63,953 nucleotides of DNA. Source: Kaistia soli DSM 19436 (GTDB lineage Bacteria; Pseudomonadota; Alphaproteobacteria; Rhizobiales; Kaistiaceae). The translations under genes and the position numbers were made by a program. The DNA lies in the NCBI RefSeq assembly GCF_900129325.1, contig NZ_FQUP01000012.1, forward strand, positions 1 through 63,953, read 5' to 3'. Below the pieces are notes generated by a model. That model was not told the origin of the DNA. It saw only the letters and a program-made list of their open reading frames with translations, and made no database searches. Below are positions 20,538-37,484 of the stretch, piece by piece. Every line of letters starts with the position of its first letter. Position 1 is the stretch's first letter.

Positions 20538-20611
20538 TGGGGAATAGTTTAATGGTAGAACAGCGGACTCTGACTCCGCTAGTCTTGGTTCGAATCCAGG
20601 TTCCCCAGCCA
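20538..20611 (+). tRNA. tRNA-Gln (CTG), integration site of the element
   Basis: 74 nt. The acceptor TGGGGAA pairs with TTCCCCA, the anticodon stem GCGGA pairs with TCCGC around CTCTGAC (anticodon CTG), and GCCA ends the gene. Its last 19 nt form the left att core of the integrated element. The tRNA gene stays complete after integration. Confidence 0.97.
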
Positions 20612-20612
20612 C
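20593..20612. other. attL core (20 bp)
   Basis: AATCCAGGTTCCCCAGCCAC at the 3' end of tRNA-Gln is repeated exactly, in the same orientation, at 37465-37484. The base after the repeat differs (c here, t there). This is the classic layout for tyrosine-integrase insertion into a tRNA gene. Confidence 0.95.
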
Positions 20613-20663
20613 CTTTTGAAAACCGCAGAAATTCGCCATTTCTAGCCCTTCCGGGGAGAGTTA

Positions 20664-20691
20664 TGTATAGCAGGTGTGTAGCTGCTATACA
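20664..20691. repeat. Inverted repeat, candidate integrase arm sites next to attL
   Basis: TGTATAGCAG and its complement CTGCTATACA are separated by 8 bp, starting 51 bp inside attL. The same 9-mer TGTATAGCA occurs twice near attR (37383-37404). The shared motif at both ends points to arm-type integrase or excisionase sites; an operator is the alternative. Confidence 0.65.
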
Positions 20692-20916
20692 CGGAATGCT
20701 GCCGGGCGCGCTTGGTGTTGCCCGATCGCCCAGTCGATCCTGATGTTGACAAACACTCGGACACTACCTAGCTTCTGAATCGTCAGTGACTGATCCCCTA
20801 AGGCTTTTACCGAGCGCGCTGACCCGCCAGGAAACTGGTCACTTGCTTATGGCTGTGGGCCGAAAGGTTTGGATTGGGGAGAATGCTTATGGGCGGCTTC
20901 GGCCGCCCAACTCTTT

Positions 20917-21456
20917 TCATAGACTCAAGTCTGCCATCCGTCGCTCGACTGCCTTGCCGAAAGGCATCCTAGCCGCGGACGCAACAGGGTTCGCCCTGCT
21001 GTAAGCACTCTCAACATAAAGATCCAAATTGATCGCGCCGTCCTTCCATGTTCCCACTGGTGACGGATGCATGCGAAAGAACACATAATAGATCTCGCCC
21101 TGCGGCAACGCAGGAGCCATCGTCAATCTGTAAACGAACCAATTACCCGTGGTTGCTAACGCTACCGATGTAGTAGGCTTGGCAAATAGCCCATCCACGA
21201 TTTGCGGAAGATGAAGCGAATATTCGTGACGACTCGGACAAAAAATCCTATCCGAGCTTCCGTCATTGACAATGTAGCTTCCTGCGACTCTTGGTAAGCC
21301 AGCATCTGAATAGCAGTGAGTGCTATAATCAATCCGAACGCTATATGTAACCTCCACCTTCTCCGCTGTCTTCCATCGAAATTCCGCAAGCGCCCGATTT
21401 AGGTGACCAAGAGAATATTGAGCACCGCAGTGATTTATCGATTCTGGATGAAACAA
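20917..21456 (-). CDS. Uncharacterised cargo protein of the element
   Basis: Up to 179 aa; the start is uncertain (TTG at 21456, or a later alternative start near LGHLNRALAEF). GC is visibly lower than in the host genes around the element. Recognisable order: a VEVTYSVRIDYSTHCYSD segment, a CPSRHEYSLHLPQIVDGL helix, TGNWFVYRLT, then IYYVFFRMHPSP and INLDLYVESAYSRA near the C terminus. This resembles a small beta-rich family that I remember being labelled stationary phase growth adaptation protein in some annotations; no function is established. It is isolated at the attL end, transcribed towards attL, which is a typical cargo position. Confidence 0.6.
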   Translation of the reverse strand: MFHPESINHCGAQYSLGHLNRALAEFRWKTAEKVEVTYSVRIDYSTHCYSDAGLPRVAGSYIVNDGSSDRIFCPSRHEYSLHLPQIVDGLFAKPTTSVALATTGNWFVYRLTMAPALPQGEIYYVFFRMHPSPVGTWKDGAINLDLYVESAYSRANPVASAARMPFGKAVERRMADLSL

Positions 21457-21886
21457 GAGACACTCGCTGCTAGGCTAACAGCCACAATTTACACGATAGC
21501 AAATGCTCGTCTACACGGCGCATGAAAATGGCGCCCAACCGTAGCCGGGCGCCCTCTTATCGTCGCGTATATCAGCAAGGCGCAACAACTTCGCCAGGCT
21601 CGGCTTCAGCTGAAGCGCGAAGAGCGTACGTCTCCAATCACAAGCGCCAAAAAACTTGCTCGAATCATGTGTATGCGCGCTCGTATGGCGTGAAAGCCTT
21701 GTGAGTCACTATGCAGGAAGTGCCTCCATCTTGGCTATGAGTTGAACTGCCCGATGCGCGGCGACACGGACGGGGTGATGGCGGCTGGTACGATGGCGGG
21801 AATCGGATGCATGAAAAGCGTTAGCGATGATAGAAATCTTTCTAGGAGTTGGTCAGCCATCTGCCGGAACAAAACGGGCCTAAGAA
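21457..21886. other. Divergent intergenic region between two cargo genes
   Basis: About 430 bp of lower-GC DNA separating the divergent cargo genes at 20917 and 21887. It holds a GC-rich hairpin (GGCGCCC/GGGCGCC type, 21530-21553) without a T run. No protein-like frame was seen. Promoters for both cargo genes should lie here. Confidence 0.5.
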
Positions 21887-22588
21887 ATGACCTTATTACT
21901 TACGGATGAAGAACTGGACCTGCTACCACCGGACCCTCTCGAAGCTTTTTTAGAGTTCGAGGCGATAGCACGGGAACGAACACTCGGTATGATCAGCGAT
22001 AGTGATACTTATGGCGAGGACATCTATGTTTCCAACATATTCGCCATGGCAGAGGTGTTTGACATCGAGTCAATAATCGATGTTCGAAACGAATATGGCG
22101 GGCCGAAGAGTATATTAGAGCTTTACGGCATTATTAGAAACAGGGTCGATACGCTTTCTTTGACGTTTCGCTTGGAGAAGTTCAAACAGCGACGTTCCGG
22201 ACACGGACCAGTACTATCGATATCTGCCGATATTATAGAAACTTTGCGGTTTCATTTAACGCAAATGAGGAGCGCAGTCGACAAAGTTGAAGGCATTCCG
22301 ATCCGAAAACGAGAAGCGATAGTTAAGCGACTTTCTGAACTTGACTATGAGATCTCAACTAGCCGCACTAAGTGGGAATCTTGGCTCGATTTGGCGCTCG
22401 AACTTGCCGACACGACTAGTGAAGTTGCTGAAAAGCTCGCCCCTACGAAAAAAATGCTAGACGCAATCTTTAAGCGCTTAGCGAAAGCTAAGCGAAATGC
22501 TCAATCGCTCCCATCGCCTGACAAGCAGAAACAGATAGAGCATCAGTCGGACGACGAGATCGAGTCAGAAGATGACATTCCCTTCTAG
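21887..22588 (+). CDS. Orphan cargo protein with SSB-like C-terminal tip (DDIPF)
   Basis: 233 aa, not recognised. GC and codon use are clearly lower than in the host genes (many att, ata, gaa). The N-terminal part is acidic and helical (TDEELDLLPPDPLEAFLEFE). The middle is helical with a predicted coiled coil (SADIIETLRFHLTQMRSAVD to SELDYEISTSRTKWESW). A basic linker (KRLAKAKRNAQSL) precedes an acidic tail ending SDDEIESEDDIPF. The last five residues match the conserved tip of bacterial SSB (DDDIPF), the docking peptide for RecO, RecQ, PriA, ExoI and others. This suggests the protein hooks into SSB-binding repair or replication proteins. A strong hairpin terminator follows at 22597. Confidence 0.7.
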   Translation: MTLLLTDEELDLLPPDPLEAFLEFEAIARERTLGMISDSDTYGEDIYVSNIFAMAEVFDIESIIDVRNEYGGPKSILELYGIIRNRVDTLSLTFRLEKFKQRRSGHGPVLSISADIIETLRFHLTQMRSAVDKVEGIPIRKREAIVKRLSELDYEISTSRTKWESWLDLALELADTTSEVAEKLAPTKKMLDAIFKRLAKAKRNAQSLPSPDKQKQIEHQSDDEIESEDDIPF

Positions 22589-22596
22589 GCGTTTGA

Positions 22597-22623
22597 GGGC
22601 GCCCAAGCTCTCGCTGGGCGCCC
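22597..22623. terminator. GC-rich hairpin between convergent genes
   Basis: GGGCGCCCA pairs with TGGGCGCCC around a 9-nt loop, immediately after the stop of the 233-aa cargo gene and before the 3' end of the minus-strand gene at 22651. It can serve both directions, although no T run of note follows. Confidence 0.6.
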
Positions 22624-22650
22624 TGTGATTATGACGGTGAGGATCGGGCC

Positions 22651-23907: not shown

Positions 23908-24016
23908 GACGTGCTTTCGTTCCCAAAGGACGTGCTTTCGTTCTCAAAGGACGTGAAATCGTTCCTAAAGGACGTGCTTTCGTTCCACCAGAAAGGACGC
24001 GCTTTCGTTCCAAATG
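23908..24016. repeat. Five 21-bp tandem repeats (iteron-like)
   Basis: Units begin at 23908, 23929, 23950, 23971 and 23996. The consensus is GACGTGCTTTCGTTCCNAAAG; the third unit has AAA in place of CTT, and a 4-bp AAAG spacer precedes the fifth. Period 21 places the copies on the same face of the helix. Options are iterons of a replication origin, an operator array for the minus-strand genes starting at 23488, or a heptad repeat in a protein (DVLSFPK type) if the plus-strand frame is translated. Confidence 0.8.
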
Positions 24017-24077
24017 CCGGCCCTCATTTCTCTCATTAGGCGATAGTTCGAGCATTATCCCGGTTGACGTGTAAGTG

Positions 24078-24091
24078 TCATAGTACTATGA
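24078..24091. promoter_or_regulatory. 14-bp palindrome, probable operator
   Basis: TCATAGTACTATGA is a perfect palindrome lying 8 bp downstream of a TTGACG hexamer (24064-24069) and 26 bp before the ATG at 24118. The position inside the promoter of the 24118 gene suggests autoregulation by its product or by another element regulator. Confidence 0.55.
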
Positions 24092-24117
24092 TGCCTTCAC
24101 CGTCCACGGAGATTCCC

Positions 24118-24534
24118 ATGCCGACTCAAATGCTTCTTCCTGATGAACGCGCCTTACAGATCAAGGCCCTCGCCACCGCTCGCGGTATCACGTCGATCGA
24201 CGTGATTGGGCATCTGATCAATGCGGCGATTGAGCGTGGCGAGCTTGAGGACACCCTTCCCGGCTGGCTGATCGCGCGCGAGGGCGATGAAGTCGTGTTC
24301 GCGGTCGGCGAGAGCGAAACGACGCGCTATCCGCTTCAGGTCGCCCGCGTCTTCGCCGAGCGCATCCGCGCCGTCATGTCTGGCGAGTTGCCTAGCCTGC
24401 TCGATCTTGATGATGACTATCTCATCACGCGCGCAGGGACGGGCTTCAAGATCGGAAACTCGACGGCCAGCAAGCCGGTCGCGCCGAGCGTCGCCGTCGA
24501 TATTGCCCGCCTTCTCAACAAGGCAGCTGCATAA
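24118..24534 (+). CDS. Hypothetical protein, possibly a DNA-binding regulator
   Basis: 138 aa starting MPTQMLLPDERALQIKALA, with GGAG 7 bp before the ATG. The N-terminal 50 residues (ALATARGITSIDVIGHLINA) resemble a ribbon-helix-helix or antitoxin-like segment. The rest is an alpha/beta region (PGWLIAREGDEVVFAVGESE, then SGELPSLLDLDDDYLITRAG). I cannot assign a family. The palindromic site in its promoter fits a regulator, and it is the best candidate for a control gene in an element that has no obvious CI-like repressor. Confidence 0.55.
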   Translation: MPTQMLLPDERALQIKALATARGITSIDVIGHLINAAIERGELEDTLPGWLIAREGDEVVFAVGESETTRYPLQVARVFAERIRAVMSGELPSLLDLDDDYLITRAGTGFKIGNSTASKPVAPSVAVDIARLLNKAAA

Positions 24535-24539
24535 AGAAA

Positions 24540-24614: not shown

Positions 24615-25187
24615 ATGCATCTTCATGAAGATCCAGACGACATTGATGAATTTTACCGGCAAATTAATGCAAATTTCTCTTGTACTCACGGAAATATAGG
24701 TGAAGCGAGGCGCAGAGAGCGCGAATTGGCACCGTATGAGCTGAGACTATTCCAAGAGCTGGACGCAATTCATTGTTCTGCATCGGAGGATGCCGATCAA
24801 GTCGCAATGAACGCGCTGCTGGACGAGCTAGATATCGAGGCTGCTGATGCCGAGCCGGAAGGCGCGTCGGAACAATCCAAGCTCGCCCCTCTACTCAATC
24901 TCGTTGCGACGGCACGCGCGGCCTATCCCAAGTATCAGCGCCGCAAGCACACGGTCATCATTCCGGTTGACGCCTCGCCTGCCGAGCGGCGGCGACTGAA
25001 GCGCAACTCGCGCGAGCGCCAGGACCGCGCGGCTGAGAATGGCGGTAAGTCGAGAGCATATCGCGCTGATCGCAGAACGATGACGCCTGAGCAGCAGCGC
25101 CAGCATGACAGCGCGCTCGGCGCTGTCCGCAAGCGCCGTTGGAAAGAGAAGCATGGGGCCGCGTCGCCGGCTAGCTCCGGCGATTGA
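24615..25187 (+). CDS. Hypothetical protein of the element
   Basis: 190 aa, not recognised. It has an acidic N-terminal half (HLHEDPDDIDEFYRQINANF, then ASEDADQVAMNALLDELDIE) and a very basic C-terminal half (SPAERRRLKRNSRERQDRAA, and TPEQQRQHDSALGAVRKRRW). The polarity suggests a nucleic-acid-binding or head/DNA-associated protein, but this is only composition. It is the one plus-strand gene next to the structural operon and overlaps the tape measure gene tail to tail by 17 bp. Confidence 0.5.
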   Translation: MHLHEDPDDIDEFYRQINANFSCTHGNIGEARRRERELAPYELRLFQELDAIHCSASEDADQVAMNALLDELDIEAADAEPEGASEQSKLAPLLNLVATARAAYPKYQRRKHTVIIPVDASPAERRRLKRNSRERQDRAAENGGKSRAYRADRRTMTPEQQRQHDSALGAVRKRRWKEKHGAASPASSGD

Positions 25188-27186
25188 CCATATTCCCCGG
25201 TCGCATCTGCCGCCGAAGCTCATCAGCCACGACGCCGCGCACGGTGCTCTCCATTTCCTTCCGCATGCGGTTGGCGAGATCCTGGTTCTGCTCGGGCGAG
25301 CCGGAGCTGCCATTGACCGTGATCGGCGCCGAAATCTGGATCGACTGGGGCGGCACGGCGCCACCCGGCCGAGCTCCCACGCTGGTCGGCACTGCCGTCT
25401 CAGGGGTGCCGTAGATCCCACCAGTCGCGAACAAGCTCGAGCCGCTATTGATAGCGTGCAGCAAGGCGCGGTGCTTCGCAGTGGCCTTGGCGTTGACAAT
25501 GAACTCCCCGTTCGAAGCCCAAATCGGGATGCTGTCGCTGGTGCCGGTGCCGGGACCACGGATGTCGCCGCCCTCGGCGTAGACGCCGCCGGCGGCAGGT
25601 GCGCCGAGAGCGATGCTGCCGAGGATCGAGGTGAGATTGAAGCCTCCCGAGAGCTTATCGAACGCCTGGTCGAGAAGCTTGTCGATGACGCGATCCAGGG
25701 CGCCAGAGAGGGCGTCGGCCGCGCTTGCGCCGTTGCGCAAGTCATCGATGAGGCCGCGCACGGCATCGGTGGCTACACCTTTGAAGGCCTGCTGCGCCTG
25801 ATTGGCGCTCTTCTGCGCGGCCTCCTGCTGCTCAATCGCCGCCGTGAGCTCGCGGATCTTCGCCTTCTGCTGTTCGGTCGCCGAGGCGCCCGCCTGCCGG
25901 AGATTGGTCGCGACGGCGCGCTCCGCATCGGTCTTGCCGACCAGGGCGAGCTCTTCCTCGAGAGAGCTGATCAGAGCCTCGACAGCGTCGGCCTCGCTGC
26001 GAGCTGCGCCAGCCGATGCCGCACGAGAGCCGCCTCCTCCGCCACCACGGGCGACGGGGTTCGGGTCATAGTCCAGGAGGTTCGGCGGCCGGTAGGGAAT
26101 GGGCGGCAAGTTGGTCTGCGAGATCGGCGGACCATCAGAAGCCCGCGCGCGGGTGGCGCGATCCTCAGAGACGACGGGCGCCGCCGTCCCCGCCGAGAAG
26201 GTGCGAGCGCGCGCGTTCTCGCGGGCGTCGTCGGCCGGTCCAGGCAAGGCGCGCTTCTGCGCCAGGAGCTCGACGTTGCCGCCGAGCATGAAGGCGTTGA
26301 AGTTGAGCCAGTTCGGATCGTTCATGAAGCGCGAGAACGAATTGCCGAGGGCGTTGCTCTGGGCGATGAGCGGCCCCATGGCGCTCGACGCCGACAGAAT
26401 CGCCGAGACGAGATTGCCCTTGATGACAGTCGCAATGAGATCCCACTGCGCCGCGAGCAGCGCCGCGCGGTCGACCAGCTCGGTCTCGATGATGGCGCCG
26501 GACGCCTTCGCCTCGTCGCCGACGCGCTGGATCTTGTCCGCTCCCATGTCGACCAGACGAATGAATTGCTCGGCGCCGGTGCCGCCAAAGAGCTCGTCGA
26601 GATTGAGAATACGCGCCGAGGTGTCGAGCTGCTGCAAGCGGCCAATGACCTCGAGGAAGAGCGCCGAGGGATCGCGCAACTTCGCCTTCAACTGGTCGGC
26701 GGTGTAGCCGAGCCTGGTTAAGGCATCCGCCGCCGAGCCCTTGCCGGTGAGAGCGAACTCTGCGCCGCGAAGCTGGAGCTCCTTCAAACCGTCGACCAGG
26801 GCGTCGGTGCCGACGCGCGCGTGCCGAGCGGCAACGTTGAGGCGCTGGAAACCCTCGACGCCGACGCCGGCCTGCTGTGCCTGGGCTTTCAGGTCGGCGA
26901 TGCCCTTGACCGCGCCCTCAATGGCGCCGGTGAACTCGCCAATGACACCAGCGGCCAGGCCGCCGGCGAAGCCCGTCGCGAAACCCTTCAGACTGCCGAA
27001 AGCCTTGTCGATCGACGAAGCGGCCTTGTCCATGTCGCGCGAGATCCGCTTGGAAGCGCGAGTGGAGCCTGCCGTCATTTCGTCAAACTTGCGCAACGTC
27101 AACGCGGTTGACTTCGTGAGCTCCTTTTCCAGGCGGCTGGTGCGCGCCTCGATCTGGGCAATTACGAGCCGAGGAACTTCAGTCAT
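25171..27186 (-). CDS. Tail tape measure protein
   Basis: 671 aa. The N terminus is a long coiled coil (VIAQIEARTSRLEKELTKST), then a hydrophobic Gly-rich segment (KGFATGFAGGLAAGVIGEF). A tape-measure domain follows (AQQAGVGVEGFQRLNVAARH and ELFGGTGAEQFIRLVDMGAD). The C terminus has the typical GPGTGTSDSIPIWASNGEF and VNAKATAKHR segments. In siphophages the length of this protein sets tail length; 671 aa would give a tail of roughly 100 nm. It starts 3 bp after the TerL stop, an unusual neighbour, and no tail tube gene precedes it. This is the last gene of the minus-strand module. Confidence 0.88.
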   Translation of the reverse strand: MTEVPRLVIAQIEARTSRLEKELTKSTALTLRKFDEMTAGSTRASKRISRDMDKAASSIDKAFGSLKGFATGFAGGLAAGVIGEFTGAIEGAVKGIADLKAQAQQAGVGVEGFQRLNVAARHARVGTDALVDGLKELQLRGAEFALTGKGSAADALTRLGYTADQLKAKLRDPSALFLEVIGRLQQLDTSARILNLDELFGGTGAEQFIRLVDMGADKIQRVGDEAKASGAIIETELVDRAALLAAQWDLIATVIKGNLVSAILSASSAMGPLIAQSNALGNSFSRFMNDPNWLNFNAFMLGGNVELLAQKRALPGPADDARENARARTFSAGTAAPVVSEDRATRARASDGPPISQTNLPPIPYRPPNLLDYDPNPVARGGGGGGSRAASAGAARSEADAVEALISSLEEELALVGKTDAERAVATNLRQAGASATEQQKAKIRELTAAIEQQEAAQKSANQAQQAFKGVATDAVRGLIDDLRNGASAADALSGALDRVIDKLLDQAFDKLSGGFNLTSILGSIALGAPAAGGVYAEGGDIRGPGTGTSDSIPIWASNGEFIVNAKATAKHRALLHAINSGSSLFATGGIYGTPETAVPTSVGARPGGAVPPQSIQISAPITVNGSSGSPEQNQDLANRMRKEMESTVRGVVADELRRQMRPGNMVNRRS

Positions 27187-27189
27187 GGT

Positions 27190-28806
27190 TCAAATCCAAA
27201 GATCTTCAGGTGAAATGCGGGGGTCGGAATAGATCGAATAGCGTTTCTTCGATCCTGCCGAGGCGCGGCCGACTGCCATCGCTGCAGCGACAGCACCATC
27301 GATGCGGTCGCGGCTCTTGCCCTTGTGGAAGGACTTGTTGCCGGCCTTGTCGGTCTCGACGCTGATGTTCTCGAAGTGCCAGCGGAGGATCGGATTGCCG
27401 CCGTGACGCAAGCGGCCGGCGATGATCGCGCGCTCGAGCTCCTTGATCGCCGGCGCCATGGTGATCCAGCCCTGCCGCATCTCAATGGCGGGGAAGCCGT
27501 CCTCGGCGAGGTTCGCCATCATGTTGCGCGCCAGGTGTGGATCGAAGGCGATCTCGCGAACATCGTAGGCGTCGCAGAGCTCGCGGATCTTCTCCTCGAC
27601 GGCGCGGAAGTCGACGACGTTGCCAGGCGTGGCGGTGATGAAGCCTTCCTCTTTCCAACGGGGATACGGAACGCCATCGCGGTCAGCTCTGCCGCGTAGG
27701 TTCTGCTCTGGGCAGAAGAACCAGGGATGCACGACGTAGCCGTCGCCATCGCGCCAGGCCGCGACGACAACGGTGAGATCAGAATTGGAAGAGAGATCGA
27801 CGCCGAGCCAGCAAGGTTCTCCCTTCAGCGCCTCGAGGTCGACGGGAGGCTCGGCGCCCTGGTCGTAGATCGCCATCTCGACGAAGGGATCGGCGCTGTG
27901 ATCGAGCCAGACATTGAGGTTCAACTGCCGAAAGGCTTCGCGGTCGCCAGGGCGGTGCTCTGCCTCGGCCGCTAGCTGGCGAAGCCCTTCGATGTCGGGA
28001 TAGGCCGGCGAGCATGACAAGCCAGGATTGGCGCGGTGCCAAACGGCCTCATCTCGCCAATCGGTATCGGGGTCGGTTTCGAACAAGATCGGCAGCGTCG
28101 CCGGGTCGTGGATCTCGCCACGCGCAACCTTGCGGGCATAGTCGACGATATCGAAGGCGACGTTCTCCTGCCCGCGTCCTGCCGTCGTCGCGACGACCAG
28201 GAGCGAGCCGGGCGTCTTCACCAGGCCGGACTTCAGCACGTCCCAGAGGTCACGCTTTTTCCAGGCGTGGAGCTCGTCAGCCAGAACGAAAACGGGCGTG
28301 CGGCCGTGCTGGGTGCCGGCATCGCACGAGATAGCCTCATAGAACGAGCCGTGCTTCCTGGACGTGAGCCGGTTGCGGTAATCCTGCAGCGAGACGACAG
28401 AGGCAACAGGAGCCGTCGCGCGAACGATGCCGAGCGCCTCGGCATAAGCAAGCCGCGCCTGCTTGCGATCTGAGGCGGCGCTGATCACTTCGCCACCAGG
28501 CACGCGCTCGGGGCCGACTGTGTGCAGGAGGGCGAGCGCCGCCGAGAGCGAGGTCTTCCGGTTGCCGCGCGGCAGGAGGAGGACAACGGTCTTCACGATC
28601 CTGGTGCCGTCCTCATGGCGCGGCCCATAGATGCGACGAACGATCCGCTCCTGCCAGGCGTCGAGAACGAAGGGATGGCCGCGCTTGAGGTTCTTGGGGT
28701 GACGGAGCGCCTTCAGGAACCGAACAGCACGCTCGCCATAGCCAAAGGGGTCCGGGATCTCCGAGCCGTCATAGATCCAATGCGGGAAGGTCGCTGCAGC
28801 TGCCAT
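27190..28806 (-). CDS. Terminase large subunit
   Basis: Packaging ATPase and nuclease, about 538 aa. The ATPase domain has a Walker-A-like VVLLLPRGNRKTSLSAA near residue 80, and Walker B VFVLADELHAW with the catalytic Glu. The coupling motif region is LLVVATTAGRG. The RNase-H-like nuclease domain has GVDLSSNSDLTVVVA, EIAFDPHLARNMMA and a final acidic residue in RDRIDGAVAAAMAVG. It belongs to the Terminase_1/HK97 group. The ATG at 28806 overlaps the TerS stop as TGATG; an in-frame GTG is one codon upstream. Confidence 0.94.
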   Translation of the reverse strand: MAAAATFPHWIYDGSEIPDPFGYGERAVRFLKALRHPKNLKRGHPFVLDAWQERIVRRIYGPRHEDGTRIVKTVVLLLPRGNRKTSLSAALALLHTVGPERVPGGEVISAASDRKQARLAYAEALGIVRATAPVASVVSLQDYRNRLTSRKHGSFYEAISCDAGTQHGRTPVFVLADELHAWKKRDLWDVLKSGLVKTPGSLLVVATTAGRGQENVAFDIVDYARKVARGEIHDPATLPILFETDPDTDWRDEAVWHRANPGLSCSPAYPDIEGLRQLAAEAEHRPGDREAFRQLNLNVWLDHSADPFVEMAIYDQGAEPPVDLEALKGEPCWLGVDLSSNSDLTVVVAAWRDGDGYVVHPWFFCPEQNLRGRADRDGVPYPRWKEEGFITATPGNVVDFRAVEEKIRELCDAYDVREIAFDPHLARNMMANLAEDGFPAIEMRQGWITMAPAIKELERAIIAGRLRHGGNPILRWHFENISVETDKAGNKSFHKGKSRDRIDGAVAAAMAVGRASAGSKKRYSIYSDPRISPEDLWI

Positions 28807-29928: not shown

Positions 29929-30293
29929 GCGTTGTACCTCTTCACAGCTGCGGTGATCGCGCGGTTGATGCGGCTGGTGGAACGACGCCGAAACGAACGG
30001 ACGATCGGCCAGAAATAGGGCTGCGCCGGAGTATCGATGGTGCCGAACTCGACGTAGGTGGCGTGCGGTGCCGCCGCGTTGCCGGCGACGACCTTCCGGG
30101 ACAGCTCGTGTTGACCAGGCTCAACACGGATGCTAGCGCGGAGATCGCCGTCATCGGACGGCGCCAGCGACTTCATCGCCGACACCATTTCGTCGGCCGA
30201 TTTGTCCACTGCCGGGGCGATGTCGGCCTTGATCTGGGCCGGAAGCGCCGCCATGAAGGCCTTAAAGCGAGCTTTTCCGCCGTCGTCTGCCAT
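29925..30293 (-). CDS. HK97 gp10-like head-tail joining protein
   Basis: 122 aa. The family signature is seen in MVSAMKSLAPSDDGDLRASI and then NAAAPHATYVEFGTIDTPAQ and PYFWPIVRSFRR. HK97 gp10-like proteins act at the head-tail junction. It overlaps the next gene by 4 bp, and its first base coincides with the last base of the gp6-like gene. Confidence 0.88.
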   Translation of the reverse strand: MADDGGKARFKAFMAALPAQIKADIAPAVDKSADEMVSAMKSLAPSDDGDLRASIRVEPGQHELSRKVVAGNAAAPHATYVEFGTIDTPAQPYFWPIVRSFRRRSTSRINRAITAAVKRYNA

Positions 30294-30586
30294 TATCCGA
30301 CCGTCCGATTACGCATTTCGCGCAGGAGATCGCGCGCGCCGAGGGGGATCTCGGCCGCGTTGGCGCCGACCAGGACGGCCTCGCGGTTCGTGTTGAAGTG
30401 GCCGACCAGCATTCGGACGGCGTGCTTGAAATCCTCAGGGATCTCCCCATCCTCTGCGAAGATCGGTCCGGTATAGCGGAGCGCATAGGCTTCAGCCGCC
30501 GCGATCATGCTGAGCAGCACGGCGTCGTCTTCATCTCCTTCGATGCGGAGGAAGCTCTTGGCGTCCTCAACGGTGATCACGGGCAT
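30293..30586 (-). CDS. Head-tail connector (HK97 gp6-like)
   Basis: 97 aa all-helical protein: VTVEDAKSFLRIEGDEDDAV-like N terminus, SMIAAAEAYALRYTGPIF, EDFKHAVRMLVGHFNTNREA and a C-terminal RDLLREMRNRTV. This is the adaptor that docks onto the portal. It follows an 86-bp gap after the HTH-like gene that includes a run of eight G on the coding strand, the only sizeable gap inside the module. Confidence 0.88.
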   Translation of the reverse strand: MPVITVEDAKSFLRIEGDEDDAVLLSMIAAAEAYALRYTGPIFAEDGEIPEDFKHAVRMLVGHFNTNREAVLVGANAAEIPLGARDLLREMRNRTVG

Positions 30587-30672: not shown

Positions 30673-31098
30673 CTAGGCCGCTCGCTTCCTCTTTCGAGGT
30701 GCACGGAAGCCATAAGGTGCAGTCAGGGCCTCGCCGACAGGCCAGCCACTCTTGAGACGGCCACGGAGAACGCTGCGATCGAGGCCGAGGCGCTCCGACC
30801 ATTCGGCAATGGTGTGGCGCTCGCCTTCGAACTCGTAACTGCACTCGGCGCGCTCGGGATTAGCGTCATAGGCTTGGATGCAGCGAACGGCGCCTTCACG
30901 AACGGCTTTCGGATCGAGACCGGCGAGGTGGCAGACTTCGTTGAAGTCGGCGCTCGGCTTGGTGAGCCAAGAGCGAGCTTGATAGCGCACAAGGTCTTTG
31001 TTGTTTTGCGCGGCTGCGGTGAGGGTCGCATCGTCTATCGCCAAAGCAATGACGTTGATCCAGAGCTGGCGCGCGCAGTCGGCAGCGTCGGCGCTCAT
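30673..31098 (-). CDS. Hypothetical phage protein with HTH-like C terminus
   Basis: 141 aa from the ATG at 31098, which overlaps the HNH stop by ATGA. The N-terminal half is helical (CARQLWINVIALAIDDATLT, then RSWLTKPSADFNEVCHLAGL and DPKAVREGAVRCI). The C-terminal half contains an HTH-like element (HTIAEWSERLGLDRSVLRGR, then LKSGWPVGEALTAPYG), similar to the small DNA-binding helices that accompany HNH nucleases in phages. It may guide the HNH enzyme or regulate packaging; this is inference. Confidence 0.6.
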   Translation of the reverse strand: MSADAADCARQLWINVIALAIDDATLTAAAQNNKDLVRYQARSWLTKPSADFNEVCHLAGLDPKAVREGAVRCIQAYDANPERAECSYEFEGERHTIAEWSERLGLDRSVLRGRLKSGWPVGEALTAPYGFRAPRKRKRAA

Positions 31099-31439
31099 GG
31101 CTGGCACTCCAGGCGCTGCTTGATCGAGCTGTGACAGGTGGCGCATAGGGATTGCAGGTTGCTCGCGTCCCTGAGCAGAGCGCGGTCGCCGCGGTGCGCG
31201 ACGACATGGTCGGCGATCGTCGCCGGCTCACTGCACATGACGCAGTTCGGGTGCTGCGCCAGGTGGTGCATGCGGGCGATGCGATGTTCACGGTCATAGC
31301 CGCGACGCCAGGCCGAGGGACGTCTCGCATCATGGCGACGGTGACGCTCCAGGAGGCGCCTGCGCTGGCAAGCGCAGAGCTCGCCGGCAGGGACGATCTC
31401 GCCGCAGCAAGGGCGGATGCGGGGAGGCTTGAACGGCAT
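31095..31439 (-). CDS. HNH endonuclease
   Basis: 114 aa starting MPFKPPRIRPCCGEIVP. Zinc-ligand Cys pairs (CCG...CAC and CVMC...CATC) frame the HNH core: ADHVVAHRGDRALLRDASNL then QSLCATCHSSIKQR, with the invariant His in DHV and Asn in SNL. HNH proteins next to terminase and portal genes are needed for DNA packaging in cos-type phages and in capsid-forming satellites. Here it is between the capsid and connector genes. Confidence 0.85.
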   Translation of the reverse strand: MPFKPPRIRPCCGEIVPAGELCACQRRRLLERHRRHDARRPSAWRRGYDREHRIARMHHLAQHPNCVMCSEPATIADHVVAHRGDRALLRDASNLQSLCATCHSSIKQRLECQP

Positions 31440-31443
31440 GTGC

Positions 31444-32085
31444 TCAGGCTCCCAACTTCGCCTTAAGGGCGTGCAGCCCGGCGCGGTCAAACTCGACATC
31501 CATGCCGGTGACAGGATCGACGGTGGGCTCCAGGTGATAGAGCTGCTGGAGATCCTGGTCGTCAGGATGCGCCGGCGGAGGGAGCTCTTTCGACAGCGCC
31601 TCGGCGACGGTAAGAGCGTGTATATGGGCGTTGAGAGCGACGTCGAGCTCGGCGAGCGTGGCGTCGAGCACCTGGTCGGGAGTCCAGTGGAAAGTTACGA
31701 TGCAGGCGCCGTAAAGCCGCCTGTAGTGCTTCGCCAGAGAGAAGGGCTTGGCGGTGATGGCTGGCGTCGCCTGGGGCGGCCGCTGCGACTCATCCGGGTC
31801 GACGCCGGACAGAATGAGCAGAAAGCGCAGGAGCGGCTCCTGGAGGCTCCTGAGCGTCTTGCCGAGCGGGCCGAAGTCGAGCTCGTCCAGGAGGTCGGAC
31901 GGGTCATCCTCTGCGCCCTCGACGATGATCGCCTTGATGAGCGTGACGTTGCCCTCGACGATCGCCGAGGCGAGCCGAGAGAAGCCGATGCGCTCGAGGC
32001 GGATCGCGGCTCGCAGCGACGCGCGAAGCCGGATCGGCACTCCAGGACCGATCGAGATCACAATGTCGTCTGCGAGCCGCAACAT
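31444..32085 (-). CDS. Hypothetical protein of the structural module
   Basis: 213 aa, not recognised with confidence. The N-terminal 60 residues (VISIGPGVPIRLRASLRAAI, RLERIGFSRLASAIVEGNV) look like a small domain. The C-terminal half (YRRLYGACIVTFHWTPDQVL, DATLAELDVALNAHIHALT) has the W-T-P and helical pattern of some tail-assembly chaperones. It could be a tail chaperone, a head decoration protein or a DNA-packaging accessory. It lies 2 bp after the major capsid gene. Confidence 0.5.
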   Translation of the reverse strand: MLRLADDIVISIGPGVPIRLRASLRAAIRLERIGFSRLASAIVEGNVTLIKAIIVEGAEDDPSDLLDELDFGPLGKTLRSLQEPLLRFLLILSGVDPDESQRPPQATPAITAKPFSLAKHYRRLYGACIVTFHWTPDQVLDATLAELDVALNAHIHALTVAEALSKELPPPAHPDDQDLQQLYHLEPTVDPVTGMDVEFDRAGLHALKAKLGA

Positions 32086-32087: not shown

Positions 32088-33212
32088 TTACGCCTTCACG
32101 CGCAGCTTGGTCAGAGCCTCGCCGAGCACGACCTTGCCGCCGACGCGACGACGGGCGCCGAACTTGACGATGCCGTTGCCATAGCCGGTGACTTCGTCGC
32201 GGATCGGGTCGATTGCCACGCGGTCGGTGATCAGGTAGCCGGATGCCAAGTCGCCGAAGACGATCGGCACCAGGCCGGCGGTGGGGTTCGGCATATGCGG
32301 GGCCTCATAGACCGGACGGCCGAGGAGGCTCGGCGGCTGACCAGCCGCGACGGACTTCTCCCAAATGTACTGACCATCAGAACCCTTCATCTTGCGGATG
32401 AGAGCCATGGTGGCGCGGTTCATGAGCCAGGAGCCGCTCGCCGAATAGGCCGACTGGAGGCCGTAGAAGAGATCGATGATCTCATCGGCGACGATGGTGC
32501 CGGTGGTGGCAGTCGTGAGCATCGAAAGCTCGGTGCTGGTCAGGACGCCTTCCGCCTGGGTCGTGCCGTTGCCAGAGATGAACCACGACGACTCGAGGGC
32601 GCCGAACTTCTTCGCCAGGTGGTTGCCAATGAACGACCCGATGTCGATCACGCTATCCTCGAGGGTAATGCGCGAGACGGGGACGACCACGGCCATCTCG
32701 AAATTCTTGATGTCGATCTGTTCGAAGGTCGGCTCGTCCTCGGTGCGCGCGGCGACTTCGGTCACGCTGACAGGCACGACTTCGTCGACCAGGCGCGGGA
32801 TCTGGAGCAAGCCGCCGTTGACGCTGACGACCTGTGCAAGCTGCCGGACCGGGCTGAACGTCGTGAGCTTCTCGATGATCTCTTCCCGGCGAATGGTCGG
32901 AATGAGCGGCGCGCCGGAGCCGGCGCCGGTGGTGAGCGCCTTGGTCTCGAGCGAGATATGGCCGGTGCGAAGCCACTCGTCATAGGCCTTCACGTCGGCG
33001 TCGCTGTCGTCGGCCTTGGTGATCAGAGCGGGCCGGCCGAGCTTCGCCTCGATCTTGTCGAGACGGTCGCCGGCCTTCTTCTCGATGTCGACCAGGCGCG
33101 CCTCAACGGTCGACTGGAGATCGCCGAGCGCCTTGGTCACGATGTCGTCGGCCTCATCGCCGGCCTTCAGTTCGATCGGCGAGAACGCCGCAGAGGGATA
33201 GCATGCAGACAC
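32088..33212 (-). CDS. HK97-family major capsid protein
   Basis: 374 aa, GTG start at 33212 with an AAAGGC site. An N-terminal coiled-coil delta domain (KALGDLQSTVEARLVDIEKK) is followed by a linker near residues 70-90, where the prohead protease would cut. Then comes the HK97 fold: GAPLIPTIRREEIIEKLTTF, SPVRQLAQVVSVNGG, SWFISGNGTTQAEGVLTS, PPSLLGRPVYEAPHMPN and FGDLASGYLITDR. It is preceded by the protease gene, the normal order. Confidence 0.94.
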   Translation of the reverse strand: MSACYPSAAFSPIELKAGDEADDIVTKALGDLQSTVEARLVDIEKKAGDRLDKIEAKLGRPALITKADDSDADVKAYDEWLRTGHISLETKALTTGAGSGAPLIPTIRREEIIEKLTTFSPVRQLAQVVSVNGGLLQIPRLVDEVVPVSVTEVAARTEDEPTFEQIDIKNFEMAVVVPVSRITLEDSVIDIGSFIGNHLAKKFGALESSWFISGNGTTQAEGVLTSTELSMLTTATTGTIVADEIIDLFYGLQSAYSASGSWLMNRATMALIRKMKGSDGQYIWEKSVAAGQPPSLLGRPVYEAPHMPNPTAGLVPIVFGDLASGYLITDRVAIDPIRDEVTGYGNGIVKFGARRRVGGKVVLGEALTKLRVKA

Positions 33213-33223
33213 GAGTTTGCCTT

Positions 33224-33724
33224 TCAGGTGCGAAGCGCCACGGCGGCGCGGGTGATAGCCTCGGCAATGCGAATTGCGGCCGTGGCGTCCTTGGAGGCGG
33301 TGATGCGCGCTCCGGGATGGGCGGGAATGGTCACGAGCGAGATCTCGACCAGGTTCAGATCCGAGATGTTCCGACCGCCGCCCTTGCGGGGCGCGGCCTT
33401 GCGGGTCATGAAACCGATCGACAGGCCGGTGACGGCGCCGGCCTGGACCAGGCTGCGGATCTCGCGGGCGCGCTCGACGGTGTCGACCAGGAGCCGGCCG
33501 CGCACCTCGAGGCCGGCCTCGGTCTCGGTGGCGCTTTCCCAGATGCCGATCGGCTCGGCGGGATCGTGCGCGAATAGCATCGGGATCGGCAGGGAGGCGC
33601 CGGCGAAGGCGCCCTTCTCGATCATGTCGCCGACGCGATCGGGCGTGCCGAAGGGCCAGGCGGTGCCGCTGATCATGCCGGCATCGTCAATGCCAAAGCT
33701 GGCCTTGAGCTCGACGCGGTTCAT
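33224..33724 (-). CDS. HK97-family prohead protease
   Basis: 166 aa serine protease that matures the capsid. The catalytic His is in PMLFAHDPAEPIG and the Ser in TGLSIGFMTRK. The usual end strand NLVEISLVTIPAHPGARI is present. It starts at 33724 in an ATGA overlap with the small gene before it and ends 11 bp before the capsid GTG. Confidence 0.92.
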   Translation of the reverse strand: MNRVELKASFGIDDAGMISGTAWPFGTPDRVGDMIEKGAFAGASLPIPMLFAHDPAEPIGIWESATETEAGLEVRGRLLVDTVERAREIRSLVQAGAVTGLSIGFMTRKAAPRKGGGRNISDLNLVEISLVTIPAHPGARITASKDATAAIRIAEAITRAAVALRT

Positions 33725-33906
33725 GCGGCGCCTCCGTGAACCTTCTTCTCGACGGAGAGCTCGTGCTGCAGCCGGAGATGGTCAATCGCGTGGATGATCG
33801 ACTTCGCCATGTCGGTTTCGCGCCGAGAGTACTTGTGGCTGTCGGCGACCATGCGCTCGAGGCTCGCTTTCACGATCTCGACGATTTCGGTGTCGATGTG
33901 TTTCAT
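33721..33906 (-). CDS. Small helical protein of the structural module
   Basis: 61 aa starting MKHIDTEIVEIVKASLERMV. It is highly charged and helical, with two His-rich turns (DSHKYSRRETDMAKSIIHAI and DHLRLQHELSVEKKVHG). Both ends overlap the neighbouring genes by ATGA, which is good evidence that it is translated. Function is unknown. Confidence 0.7.
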   Translation of the reverse strand: MKHIDTEIVEIVKASLERMVADSHKYSRRETDMAKSIIHAIDHLRLQHELSVEKKVHGGAA

Positions 33907-34244
33907 GCTGCCACCTCGTGCGGCTCGGCGTCCGCCTGGTCGTCGGCGCCGAACCACAAGCGCTCGAGGATCGCCAGGGCGAGCGGATAGGTCTCATTGA
34001 GGGGCCGGCCGGTGACATAGACGCCGACCAGGTGCAGAGCGCGTTCAGGCGACATGCCGCCGCCGATCAGGGCGAGGCGGATGATCTCGGCGAGGTCCGA
34101 CAGGTAGAAGGCGCGCGCGATGACACGCGAAAACAGCGTGCCGATGCCGGCGCCAGTGAGGCGCTCGAGCTCGGCGACGTTTGCGGGCGTGAGGCAGAAA
34201 TCGTGCTCGGCATCGCCGAGGAATTCGCGGTGCGACAGGGTCAT
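33903..34244 (-). CDS. Tail assembly chaperone-like protein (GTA gp10 / Phage_TAC_11-like)
   Basis: 113 aa. The pattern matches the gene-transfer-agent family chaperone I remember: GDAEHDFCLTPANVAELERL, TGAGIGTLFSRVIARAF, DLAEIIRLALIGGGMSPERA, then VGVYVTGRPLNETYPLALAI. In GTAs and siphophages this gene stands between the tail tube and tape measure genes. Here it lies between portal and protease, coupled to both sides by ATGA. The displacement is odd, and its normal partner, the tail tube, is not found in the element. Confidence 0.78.
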   Translation of the reverse strand: MTLSHREFLGDAEHDFCLTPANVAELERLTGAGIGTLFSRVIARAFYLSDLAEIIRLALIGGGMSPERALHLVGVYVTGRPLNETYPLALAILERLWFGADDQADAEPHEVAA

Positions 34245-35488
34245 TGCGGAGCCTCGATCTGACGGGGAGCCGGAGTGGTGTTGCTGGTGGTGTTCGGGTT
34301 CATGAATTGATCGCCGCCGGCATACGGGGCGCGGTTTTCCATCGCGCGCGCCTCATTGGGCGAGAGCACGCGGGCGCTGATCAGCTTGGCGTAGGACTCG
34401 GCGCGCGCGCCGAAGTCGGCCCTGAGGAGATCGTCGATAAGGAACTCGGCAAACGAGCTCTGGCGCTCATCGGGCGCAAAGAGCTTGAGGCGGATCTCGC
34501 CTTCCCAGGCCTTGAGCCAGCGAGCGAGCGTGTAGGTGAGGAATTGCTGTCCGCCGAACTCGGCGTTCGCCCATGTCTGCCGGCTGTAGTCCATGAGCAG
34601 GACCGGCGGCACGCGGAAGACGCGGGCAATATCCGAGATCAGATAGGCCCAAATCTGCAAGAGCTGGCTGTCGACGCTGTTCATGGTGAGCGACTCGATC
34701 GCCTTCACGCCCTGGAGAACTGCGGTGCCGCCCTGCCGAGAACCGCCGTGCGCGGCTTTCCAACTCGCGACGATCTTCTCGAGCGCGCCCTCGCCGGGAT
34801 CTTCATCCAGGAGGACCGCGAGAGACGGGCGAGCGCCATTGCCGAACAGCCGGGCGGTATGCGCCTCGAGCGCGATCAAGACGCCGATGGTCTCCTTCGC
34901 CAGGATGACCGGCGAGGCGCCGGAAACGCCGTCGAGCGAGGGCGCCGAGATATGCAGAATGCTGCCGCGGTCGAGCTGGCGCCGGCCTGCCTGGGTTGAG
35001 ATGAAATACAAGGGCGCGCCGAAGTCGTCCTGGTCGACGGTGACGGATCGCGGGTCGAGCCGCTGGAGCTCGATCGGCCGGCCGTCAAAGGCGCGGGAGA
35101 TGTAGCCGTAGCCGTTGCCGTGCAGGAGCGCGTCGCGCGTCACCTGCTCTTTGAAAGAGCTCGCCGACTGCCAGGTGTTCGGCGCGTCGTGCAGGATCTC
35201 ATAGAGCGGGTGGCTGGTGTCGCGCTCCTTGGCGCCAGCCGGGTCTCGGCTGTAGACAATAACCGGGAGCTGGCCGACAGCTTCGGCAATAGCCTGTACT
35301 GCGCAGCGGACGGCCGCAGAGCGCATCGCGGTCTCGGGCGTAACAGATACGCCGGACGCGACGGGCTGAGATCCGATGAGATCCAGGAACCACGGCGCCG
35401 GCGACGACACGCCAGAGACGAGCGACTTCTTCTCCAGGACGCCGCCACGGATGAAACCGCCGGCTTTGCTGATCCATGACGCAAGCAA
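34241..35488 (-). CDS. HK97-family portal protein
   Basis: About 415 aa. It forms the dodecameric portal through which DNA is packaged. Conserved stretches are SVTPETAMRSAAVRCAVQAI, LYEILHDAPNTWQSASSFK, LLHGNGYGYISRAFDGRP, DRGSILHISAPSLDGVSGAS, RVFRVPPVLLMDYSRQTWAN and LSPNEARAMENRAPYAGGDQ. No ATG fits the start. TTG at 35488 has GGAAGG at good spacing; TTG at 35503 is the alternative and lies in an inverted repeat. The integrase gene ends only about 60-80 bp upstream on the same strand. Confidence 0.92.
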   Translation of the reverse strand: MLASWISKAGGFIRGGVLEKKSLVSGVSSPAPWFLDLIGSQPVASGVSVTPETAMRSAAVRCAVQAIAEAVGQLPVIVYSRDPAGAKERDTSHPLYEILHDAPNTWQSASSFKEQVTRDALLHGNGYGYISRAFDGRPIELQRLDPRSVTVDQDDFGAPLYFISTQAGRRQLDRGSILHISAPSLDGVSGASPVILAKETIGVLIALEAHTARLFGNGARPSLAVLLDEDPGEGALEKIVASWKAAHGGSRQGGTAVLQGVKAIESLTMNSVDSQLLQIWAYLISDIARVFRVPPVLLMDYSRQTWANAEFGGQQFLTYTLARWLKAWEGEIRLKLFAPDERQSSFAEFLIDDLLRADFGARAESYAKLISARVLSPNEARAMENRAPYAGGDQFMNPNTTSNTTPAPRQIEAPQ

Positions 35489-35497
35489 CAGAAGGCC

Positions 35498-35517
35498 TTC
35501 CAAGTTTGATCTTGGAA
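35498..35517. repeat. Inverted repeat between integrase and portal genes
   Basis: TTCCAAG and CTTGGAA are separated by 6 bp. The repeat sits exactly at the junction of the integrase gene and the structural module and overlaps the possible portal start, so it may be an operator or an RNA hairpin controlling late genes. There is no T run. Confidence 0.55.
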
Positions 35518-35566
35518 AACCTTAGCACGGTATCAGGATACCTACAAAGCGAATTTTGAACGACGT

Positions 35567-37360
35567 TCAGAATCCCTGTCTGGTGGCCGGATATAGGTGG
35601 CTGAGATCCAGGCCGGGATAGGCGATAGCCTCGACCAGCTCGACGCGCTGCCGCAGCATTCCCTCGGGTAGATGCCCATACCGGCCGGTCTGCGTGTGCT
35701 TGGCGTGGCCGAGGATCATCGCAAACTCCTCGTCAAGATATTCGGCGCGGCGCAGCGCATCAGCCGAACCATGGCGGAACGAATAGAGCGACGGGCCGCG
35801 TCCCTCCTTGATGGCGACCTTCTCCAGGTAGCGCCCGAAGTCGCGGGAGAACTTCGCCGCCATTTGACCGCGGCTGTTGCGCTCCGCCTCGGGGAACAGG
35901 TGCTTCTCGCCCTTCTCCTTCTGCGCTTTCGCGAAGTCGACGAAGCCGAGCCGGACCAGCTCTGTATGGATCGGCACGACGCGCATACTGCCCTTCGTCT
36001 TCATGCTCTTGTCGTCGCTGCCCTCCTCGGTGATGTGCATGATCCACTTCCCGTGCTGCTCGCGGACGTCTTTGACCAGGAGCTGCGCGATCTCTGCCGG
36101 CCGAGCGCCGGACCAGAGCATGACGAGCGGAAGCCAATAGCGGTGGTCGCGGATCTGGAGATTGCCGGGTTGCGCTATGAGCGCCAGTTTCTCGTCGGAC
36201 TGGCATCCGGTGAACAGTGGCGACGAGAACAGCGTCGTCAGCTCTTCCGTCGAGAAGACGGGTTTGCTGGTGTCCTTCTCCACGGTGATGAACATATCGA
36301 GAAGCGGGTTGGCCGGGAGATGACCCTGTGGAACCAGCCAATTCGCGAATGCCGACAGGCCAGCCATGTATCGATTGACCGTTTTTGGCGAGATCGGCGG
36401 CTTTCGCTGCTCCTCGGGTAGAGCGTCATTACAGGCGACGATCTCCTCGAGGGACAGGCCGGCGAAGATCTTGGTCTCGGCGGCCTTCACAGGATACCTT
36501 AGCAGGAGATCCTTCCAATCACCGACGCGTAGCTTGTCGATGACTGTCACCGGCGAGCGCTCGCCGACATAGCCAATGAAGAGCTTAACCGCCATCCGCG
36601 TCTGAGCGAGCGTGTCAGGCTTCACGTTCTTTGGGTTCTCGCGGACGTAGCGCTCAAAGAGCGCCGGGATACTCCTGCCAGGCGCAGCTGCTGGAGCTGC
36701 GACCGGAGGCTTGACTAACCTGTCACGGGGAACGCCGGAGAAGTCGCCCTCGTCGCGCTCCTGGGCGCGCTGGAGCGCCTCGAGCTCGGCCCGCTGGAGA
36801 CCCTGAGCAAGTTTCTTGTAGTCGCTGGATCCCTTCGGTAGCGCGACGCGCTTGGCCTTGGCGACCTTCATCACTGCGCCGGCGACCAGCTGCGTGTCGC
36901 CCCGTGAAGTGCCGATCTTCAATGCGGTGAGCCGCTGGGCACGCTCGGCCTGGTCGTGCTCGATCCGATCGCGAATGGTCTCGAAGATGCGATAGGCTTG
37001 GAGGTCGAACTCGCCGAACTCGGCCTCGAGATGGCGCCAGATCTCATCCAGGTCGTCGCCGTCCGGTTGATCCTGCCTGAAGCGCTCATCGGCATCGACG
37101 AGCTCGTTATAGCGGCTCCAGACGGCTTCCTGGATGTCATGCTCGCTCATGGAAGTGCGAGCTCGCATGTCGTCGAACTCGCGGTCGAGCTCGTCGAGCA
37201 CGCGTCGCGCACGTCGCTTCGCCTCTTCCGGGTCGGGCGTGCCGAGCGAACGCCAGATGAGCTTATTGCCGAACGCCTGCCAGAGATCCTTCGGCATCCT
37301 CTTGCGGACGCTATAGTTGGCGGATCCGGCGCGGCGGACGATGTTGGTCGCGAGAACCAT
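35567..37360 (-). CDS. int: Tyrosine site-specific integrase
   Basis: About 597 aa. The N-terminal region (IVRRAGSANYSVRKRMPKDL, then RSLGTPDPEEAKRRARRV) matches the DUF6538 arm-binding-type domain seen in large proteobacterial integrases. A long helical middle precedes the core-binding domain (RYVRENPKNVKPDTLAQTRM). The catalytic domain shows Arg in WSGARPAEIAQL, the His-Arg region YSFRHGSADALRR, then LGHAKHTQTGRYGH with the Tyr nucleophile. The ATG at 37360 is chosen because upstream frames enter the att site. It lies about 105 bp from attR and reads towards the portal gene, so it is co-directional with the structural genes. Confidence 0.93.
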   Translation of the reverse strand: MVLATNIVRRAGSANYSVRKRMPKDLWQAFGNKLIWRSLGTPDPEEAKRRARRVLDELDREFDDMRARTSMSEHDIQEAVWSRYNELVDADERFRQDQPDGDDLDEIWRHLEAEFGEFDLQAYRIFETIRDRIEHDQAERAQRLTALKIGTSRGDTQLVAGAVMKVAKAKRVALPKGSSDYKKLAQGLQRAELEALQRAQERDEGDFSGVPRDRLVKPPVAAPAAAPGRSIPALFERYVRENPKNVKPDTLAQTRMAVKLFIGYVGERSPVTVIDKLRVGDWKDLLLRYPVKAAETKIFAGLSLEEIVACNDALPEEQRKPPISPKTVNRYMAGLSAFANWLVPQGHLPANPLLDMFITVEKDTSKPVFSTEELTTLFSSPLFTGCQSDEKLALIAQPGNLQIRDHRYWLPLVMLWSGARPAEIAQLLVKDVREQHGKWIMHITEEGSDDKSMKTKGSMRVVPIHTELVRLGFVDFAKAQKEKGEKHLFPEAERNSRGQMAAKFSRDFGRYLEKVAIKEGRGPSLYSFRHGSADALRRAEYLDEEFAMILGHAKHTQTGRYGHLPEGMLRQRVELVEAIAYPGLDLSHLYPATRQGF

Positions 37361-37382
37361 GACTGCTATCCCCAATGGGCTC

Positions 37383-37404
37383 TGTATAGCAATAATGTAT
37401 AGCA
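37383..37404. repeat. Direct repeat pair, candidate integrase arm sites next to attR
   Basis: TGTATAGCA occurs at 37383-37391 and 37396-37404, 13 bp apart, 61-82 bp inside attR. A partial inverted copy (CTGCTAT) is at 37363-37369 beside the integrase start. The same 9-mer forms the inverted repeat near attL. The sites also overlap the likely integrase promoter, so they may double as an autoregulatory operator. Confidence 0.65.
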
Positions 37405-37464
37405 TCGCGGCAGTCAAACACGAGGAAATGCAACGTTTCTGCGGCTTCCAGGCGATCGGCTTAA

Positions 37465-37484
37465 AATCCAGGTTCCCCAGCCAC
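37465..37484. other. attR core (20 bp)
   Basis: Exact copy of the last 19 nt of tRNA-Gln(CTG) plus one base, in the same orientation as 20593-20612. No other part of a tRNA is present here, so this is the element-derived right end. Confidence 0.95.

Follow-up and report, generated by a model that had tools for sequence, protein, structure and literature searches.

An integrated element in a tRNA-Gln gene of Kaistia soli

We analysed a 63,953-nucleotide stretch of the Kaistia soli DSM 19436 genome (contig NZ_FQUP01000012.1, hereafter the window), which contains an integrated 16.9-kb element at 20593..37484. The gene content suggests that this element is very likely a satellite, and probably a hybrid-tail one that joins its own head to tail parts of a helper phage. 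A repeat search revealed that the element is flanked by exact 20-bp direct repeats, the attL core (20593..20612) and the attR core (37465..37484), with the left copy forming the 3' end of the tRNA-Gln(CTG) gene detected by ARAGORN (20538..20611, plus strand), which is the integration target. The tyrosine integrase gene (35567..37501 as the longest open reading frame [ORF], minus strand; Pfam DUF6538 and Phage_integrase, phrog_1) probably starts at an internal ATG, since the longest ORF extends past attR. It is followed by a minus-strand late operon running from the portal to the tape measure gene, and three plus-strand genes lie between the tape measure gene and attL.

Comparison with a same-genus genome (G007) indicated that the tRNA-Gln site is unoccupied there, since the left flank continues through the tRNA-Gln gene, at 92% identity up to the attL core, and no element proteins were found at this locus. 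Beyond attR, 35 bp align at 91% identity; the right flank of the G007 site is not base-for-base common with the window, and synteny returns at window position 45029, after approximately 7.5 kb of differing DNA (8.3 kb in G007). This variable stretch beside attR (37500-45029) carries a sugar-transporter-like operon. Judged from its sequence, with its own integrase, att repeats, and an unoccupied site in a sibling genome, the element is mobile. The exact repeats and the empty site bear out an earlier note on this DNA, which had placed a 16.9-kb element at these limits in tRNA-Gln.

Gene families were assigned by Pfam and PHROGs searches of the called ORFs, which named 13 proteins: integrase, portal, TAC_11, S78 protease, capsid, HNH, gp6, gp10, terminator, head completion, TerS, TerL, and the tape measure protein (TMP). 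Two further proteins (p213 and p157) have PHROG matches only, and profiles assign no function to another four (orf78, p190, p156, and p233). The head, packaging, and neck genes, all on the minus strand, encode the portal (34241..35503; PF04860, 5e-88), the S78 prohead protease (33224..33724; PF04586), an HK97-type major capsid protein (32088..33212; PF05065, 2e-63), an HNH endonuclease (31095..31499; PF01844, 4e-5, phrog_589), a gp6-like head-tail connector (30293..30586; PF05135), an HK97-gp10-like tail completion or neck protein (29925..30293; PF04883), a head completion or closure protein (29186..29509; PF05521), the terminase small subunit TerS (Terminase_4, 28806..29207; PF05119), and the terminase large subunit TerL (27190..28809; phrog_9, 5e-142). 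The late-gene reading frames are intact, in agreement with the earlier claim of an integrase and a complete, intact head and packaging set. The claim that almost all genes overlap by 1-4 bp was overstated: 6 of the 14 late-gene junctions do so, as measured from longest-ORF starts, the others being gaps of 2-86 bp or overlaps of 22-56 bp.

Tail genes of the element and the parts it does not encode

Four minus-strand genes point to a partial tail module. The TMP (25171..27186, 671 aa) matches phrog_10574 (9.7e-100), and the tail terminator, or gp17-like tail completion protein (DUF3168, 29506..29928), matches PF11367 (2e-21) and the SPP1 gp17 chain (3.4e-5). TAC11 (33903..34244, 113 aa), a member of the GTA-gp10 family (PF11836 [Phage_TAC_11], 2e-24; phrog_8985), is read as a putative tail assembly chaperone rather than a tail tube. 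The solved tail tube of the Rhodobacter gene transfer agent (GTA) is a different protein, Rcc01691, which is weakly matched (E 0.15) by the major tail protein of a resident prophage; the matches of TAC11 among solved structures are designed helical repeats; a separate tail tube lies beside TAC11 in 10 of 16 TAC11 loci; and in the resident prophage OWN2, TAC11 stands between the major tail protein and the TMP. The product of p213 (31444..32085; phrog_7493, a family without an assigned function, 4e-7) is a probable second tail assembly chaperone, as 13 of 27 members of its family match Pfam TAC_6; for the window protein this match is no better than 0.099. A role of p213 as the tail tube was rejected, since a tube coexists with p213 in several loci and the family matches TAC_6; a fused TAC_11-TAC_6 protein was unsupported in profile-profile comparison.

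The called window genes include no match to a family of tail tube, tip, fibre, holin, endolysin, primase, or helicase. Neither the full tail tube, tip, lysis, and replication set that a temperate siphophage carries nor a replication module of the primase-rep type known from phage-inducible chromosomal islands (PICIs) is present among them. Profiles built from seven tail-tube and four gpM-like sibling proteins gave no match at E<=1 in 20501-37600, searched over stop-to-stop frames of at least 30 aa, and profile-profile comparison of p213, p157, p156, p190, p233, and orf78 with the sibling tail-tube and gpM profiles likewise found nothing. PICI regulators are of the AlpA or Stl type; in a scan covering ORFs of at least 78 aa, p156, p190, and p233 matched no family. 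The earlier note had not seen tail tube, tip, fibre, lysis, or replication genes, and had named a profile search for tail tube, baseplate, and lysis genes as a check; the search of called ORFs returned none, with two labels to be borne in mind, 'tail tube' on TAC11 and 'endolysin' on the TMP C-terminus. The endolysin-PHROG matches of the window TMP cover a stretch that also matches TMP families. In three relatives (L083:846-4496, L102:10864-14229, and L114:6328-9075), internal stretches of the TMP likewise hit endolysin PHROGs, which may point to an inserted muralytic domain.

The remaining genes of the element are less readily assigned. The C-terminus of p157 (30673..31146, minus strand; phrog_3377, 3e-8) resembles a domain of HNH homing enzymes. 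No convincing family was found for orf78 (33721..33957, minus strand); its match to Csm2 (0.0087), the sole PADLOC match among window proteins, was judged to be chance, and defence cargo in the window was rejected. On the plus strand near attL, the accessory genes p233 (21887..22588) and p190 (24615..25187), the latter convergent with the late operon, belong to no family and are not conserved in mapped relatives, while p156 (24064..24534) has profile matches near the TMP in four relatives (G031, G223, G345, and L187). In an hhalign comparison, the profile of p156 shows a weak similarity to that of the tail terminator (probability 49.5). Upstream of p156, an array of 21-bp direct repeats (4.8 copies, 23908..24011) is a candidate origin or regulator site (iterons or operator). 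Its reading as a conserved origin was rejected, as no such array was detected in any of the remaining 30 mapped loci.

Relatives of the element and their tail kits

An order-level survey, combining a TMP search of 61 genomes with a TerL search of 397 genomes, yielded 30 loci besides the window, with TerL relatives in 27 of the 397 genomes. All 15 compared genes occur in the same order in G023 (same family, 28-75% identity) and in G235 (another family), and 14 of the 15 in G040, G045, G165a, and G345. Att-like repeats at tRNAs bound elements of 15.9-18.8 kb in 20 of the 31 mapped loci and of 11.0 kb in one; no repeat was found in 10. Of the 21 att-bounded loci, 9 lie at tRNA-Gln and the rest at tRNAs for Leu, Ser, Thr, Pro, Asn, or Arg. 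Full-length phage relatives at the same site would have counted against a satellite; the relatives at this kind of site are small att-bounded elements and not phages of full length.

A wider search matched TerL at 253 places in named genomes, the best 80 of which (58-77% identity to the query family) lie in Hyphomicrobiales, Rhodobacterales, Azospirillaceae, and other Alphaproteobacteria. These 80 loci are att-bounded at 15.5-18.2 kb in 26 cases (three on the same contigs as the order-level set), and at 11.9 kb in one, whereas no repeat was found in 53; since none of these loci exceeds 21.6 kb, larger elements would have escaped detection. Among 50,697 phage records, all 2,064 TerL matches were below 60% identity, the best listed being 37%, from Firmicutes phages. 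Primase- or helicase-like genes occur in five relatives (G037, G101, L135, L163, and L184). Several loci depart from the common plan: an 11.0-kb att-bounded element (L106/L107; G280, C19) has TerL and a TMP with no portal or capsid detected, and is perhaps a further reduced relative; in L097 and L114 (G120 and G263b) the TMP gene immediately precedes the portal gene instead of following TerL; and the G235 element (L068:7029-8954) encodes a 641-aa protein matching PADLOC NsnA (4e-33), a candidate defence cargo beside the att tRNA.

Tail kits were counted in the loci whose stored stretch includes portal, capsid, and TerL, namely 67 of the 80 named-genome loci and 29 order-level loci. By profile, the 67 carry a TMP in 44, a tail tube in 36, neck or terminator genes in 44, chaperone families in 16, and none of these in 20. 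PHROGs detected the TMP missed by profile in two of the 20 (L126 and L171), leaving 18 of 67 head-only loci in the TerL clade, with unassigned ORFs scanned in part. The 29 order-level loci carry a TMP in 24 (25 with G040, found by tblastn), a tail tube in 8, and gpM-like genes in 6. The kits are thus graded: none; a TMP with or without chaperones and terminator; or all these with a tail tube. The lack of a tube in the window is a variable trait, because siblings often carry one (8 of 29 and 36 of 67). TMP lengths range from 424 to 1311 aa in a set of 123, in which some elements drawn from two collections are present twice, yet the elements stay near 17.5 kb.

Mapping of the kits onto a quick maximum-likelihood TerL tree (68 rows) indicated that TMP presence changed at least 7 times, 5 of them forced by well supported branches (62 rows, leaving out the unclear L123, L146, and L149 and three neck-only loci), and that tube presence among TMP-bearing rows changed at least 8 times, 5 of them forced (47 rows). 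The labels of both were clustered relative to shuffles (0-2 of 500 as low), which suggests repeated change rather than free mixing of the kits. One Martelella lutilitoris assembly (NZ_VCLB01 contigs) contains L131, with a tube and a TMP, and L136 and L137, without detected tail genes; the TerL proteins of L131 and L136 are 85% identical. These three loci offer a natural comparison between members in which a tail kit was detected and members in which none was. TMP genes are under protein-level constraint in sibling pairs, with differences at codon positions 1/2/3 of 56/45/214 for L126/L127 and 130/97/350 for L131/L132; the filter drops pairs with at least 60% of aligned residues different, and thereby the L194/L197 pair, and the window TMP itself has no close relative to compare. 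A tape-measure swap within one genome was rejected for L126/L127, as their TMPs are 89% identical over 634 aa.

Interpretation as a probable satellite and competing explanations

From its gene content, the element is probably an integrated, mobile, capsid-forming satellite of host siphophages that would join its own head to a helper tail tube polymerised on the satellite's ruler. Its genes would allow it to integrate, assemble a head and pack it with DNA, close the neck, cap the tail, and set the tail length, whereas tube subunits, tip, fibres, and lysis appear to have no satellite genes. When a helper siphophage is active, the satellite would excise and be amplified, perhaps by helper enzymes, and its heads would be filled with its own 16.9-kb genome. 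The satellite TMP and chaperones would nucleate a tail on the helper tip complex, along which helper tail tube subunits would polymerise following the satellite ruler; the satellite terminator and neck proteins would then cap this tail and attach it to the satellite head, and helper holin and endolysin would release the hybrid particles. Tail length follows a rule of approximately 0.15 nm per TMP residue, by which the tail would measure approximately 100 nm, whatever the helper's own length. The reading agrees best with the second option of the earlier note, a satellite variant bringing its own tape measure and tail chaperone.

Such a scheme has a precedent, as virions of the Vibrio cholerae PICI-like element (PLE) PLE11 contain a TMP and a baseplate hub encoded by the PLE, the remaining tail proteins coming from the helper ICP1; the tails are approximately 10 nm shorter, and transfer drops by approximately 99.9% without tmp (PMC12987554). 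These chimeric tails were demonstrated in 2026 by virion proteomics, tail length, and deletion tests (PMC12987554). PLEs resemble the element in having a satellite TMP and tail chaperone (here the TMP by profile and the chaperones by family), used in PLEs with the helper tail tube and other parts (PMC12987554). PLEs differ in relying on the capsid proteins of a contractile-tailed helper, some adding a baseplate hub (PMC12987554), whereas the element has its own capsid, portal, and protease and a siphophage-type tail module. For the head, the element resembles the capsid-forming PICIs (cf-PICIs) of Alqurainy et al., as described in PMC10690885: integrated in a host chromosome by an integrase between att repeats, approximately 15-18 kb long, with its own capsid, protease, portal, connectors, TerS, TerL, and HNH, and without a tail tube, tip, or lysis gene. 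It departs from them in its TMP, two chaperone-like genes, gp10, and tail terminator, and in that no primase or recognised regulator was found. Since cf-PICIs are defined as having no tail genes of their own and a replication module, we do not class the element as one, although the former point is softened because a sampling of cf-PICIs encodes putative tmp genes (PMC12987554, legend of Extended Data Fig. 10b); a replication-less, regulator-poor element is outside the usual PICI definition. The Mulch and Flayer satellites of Streptomyces also have their own capsid and packaging genes, and MulchRoom has long siphovirus-like tails; their helpers, unlike those proposed here, are virulent Streptomyces phages, their authors report no significant similarity to PICIs, and the available part of that source mentions no tape measure (PMC10690885). 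By analogy, its head would be made as in a cf-PICI and its tail assembled as in a PLE.

Two complete siphoprophages in the same genome, OWN1 (C4 395000-432000) and OWN2 (C4 1243000-1280000), could serve as helpers. Their TMPs are related to that of the window, and OWN2 also has gp10, terminator, and TAC11 families in common with it; unlike the element, both are complete phages that encode a tail tube or a tip, and in OWN1 an endolysin, and their TerL is distant or of another family. Neither was supported as a matched helper, as neither stands out by TMP rank.

Several observations weigh against this interpretation. Among the satellite TMPs that match those of the resident prophages, the window TMP ranks 7 of 99 for OWN1 and 21 of 110 for OWN2, which is not specially close. 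Both TAC11 families (Pfam Phage_TAC_11 and phrog_8985) are described as 'tail tube protein', and if that label is right the element would own a tube. The chaperone role of p213 rests on its family, the window p213 having no Pfam match at 0.01, and the p213 and TAC11 profiles showed no similarity. The TMP C-terminus matches the endolysin-labelled phrog_971 and phrog_1768, which bears on the absence of lysis genes. IMG/VR already files the element as a viral contig of 15,474 bp (L203), and with a tube gene in 36 of the 67 relatives the tail module could be a relic of an ancestral phage. Finally, with neither a primase nor a recognised regulator found in the called window genes, the gene set appears not to account for replication and induction, and particles, excision, and helper are all inferred from sequence.

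The best-surviving alternative, which we nevertheless consider unlikely, is a simpler capsid-forming satellite, one that would borrow the whole tail of a helper, with TMP, chaperones, and terminator as unused passengers from the phage that donated the head module. The head-only loci of the TerL clade (18 of 67, unassigned ORFs scanned in part), the two M. lutilitoris loci without detected tail genes beside L131, and the absence from the window of a tube that many relatives have are all consistent with it. Passengers, however, would decay in a size-limited genome, whereas the TMP frame is intact in the window, TMPs are called in most loci and are constrained at the protein level in sibling pairs, and the repeated gain or loss of the TMP on the TerL tree left intact genes on the TMP side.

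It is improbable that the element is a very small autonomous phage with tube, tip, and lysis functions in unrecognised genes (p190, p156, p233, p157, and orf78). Six window proteins have no function by profile, and p156 has its weak terminator match (probability 49.5); yet the five proteins, each of 78-233 aa, could not between them cover tube, tip, fibre, holin, endolysin, and replication. No similarity to the sibling profiles for tail tube or gpM was seen in any of the five, and p190 and p233 lack conservation. Decay of a prophage that lost its tail tube, tip, lysis, and replication genes is very improbable. Most families of the window are ordinary temperate siphophage families, and some copies do decay, the G089 TerL and the L152 TMP each being split over two ORFs; against this, the window frames are intact, gene order is kept in independent genomes, the size range is narrow at several tRNAs, and no close full-length phage exists among the 50,697 records. 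The earlier note had also thought decay less likely, and the 15 ordered genes of G023 and G235 and the third-position bias of TMP substitutions in sibling pairs contradict decay. A GTA-like cluster, suggested by the TAC_11, protease, and capsid families common to alphaproteobacterial GTAs and by the Pfam names TAC_11 and TAC_6, taken from GTA genes, can practically be set aside, as GTAs are non-mobile loci with a full tail set, whereas this element has an integrase, att repeats, TerS, and an unoccupied sibling site, and no full tail gene set.

The accepted picture before the 2026 PLE work was that satellites making heads borrow whole tails. Tail chimerism in PLEs and putative tmp genes in cf-PICIs are already known, and the part new to a specialist would be a lineage-wide graded tail cassette; no paper on a tape-measure-bearing satellite family of Alphaproteobacteria was found in a search mostly without subscription journals and preprints. 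As a tentative proposal, about which we remain rather doubtful, Alphaproteobacteria may host a satellite lineage with a constant head and packaging core and a swappable tail cassette cut in steps (head only; with a ruler; with ruler, chaperones, and terminator, as in the window; with a tail tube; and with a gpM-like tip protein), in which the satellite sets the tail length and trades only the cassette to change helper. If true, this would be a graded series from satellite to phage, each step stating which tail parts are borrowed. The idea seen in PLEs would then recur in a lineage that is unrelated to them, makes its own capsid, and is common among Alphaproteobacteria, and whose natural variants keep the head and change the tail kit. 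Two questions thereby become directly testable: how small a set of tail parts of its own is enough for a satellite to use a foreign tail, and whether it is the satellite or the helper that fixes tail length.

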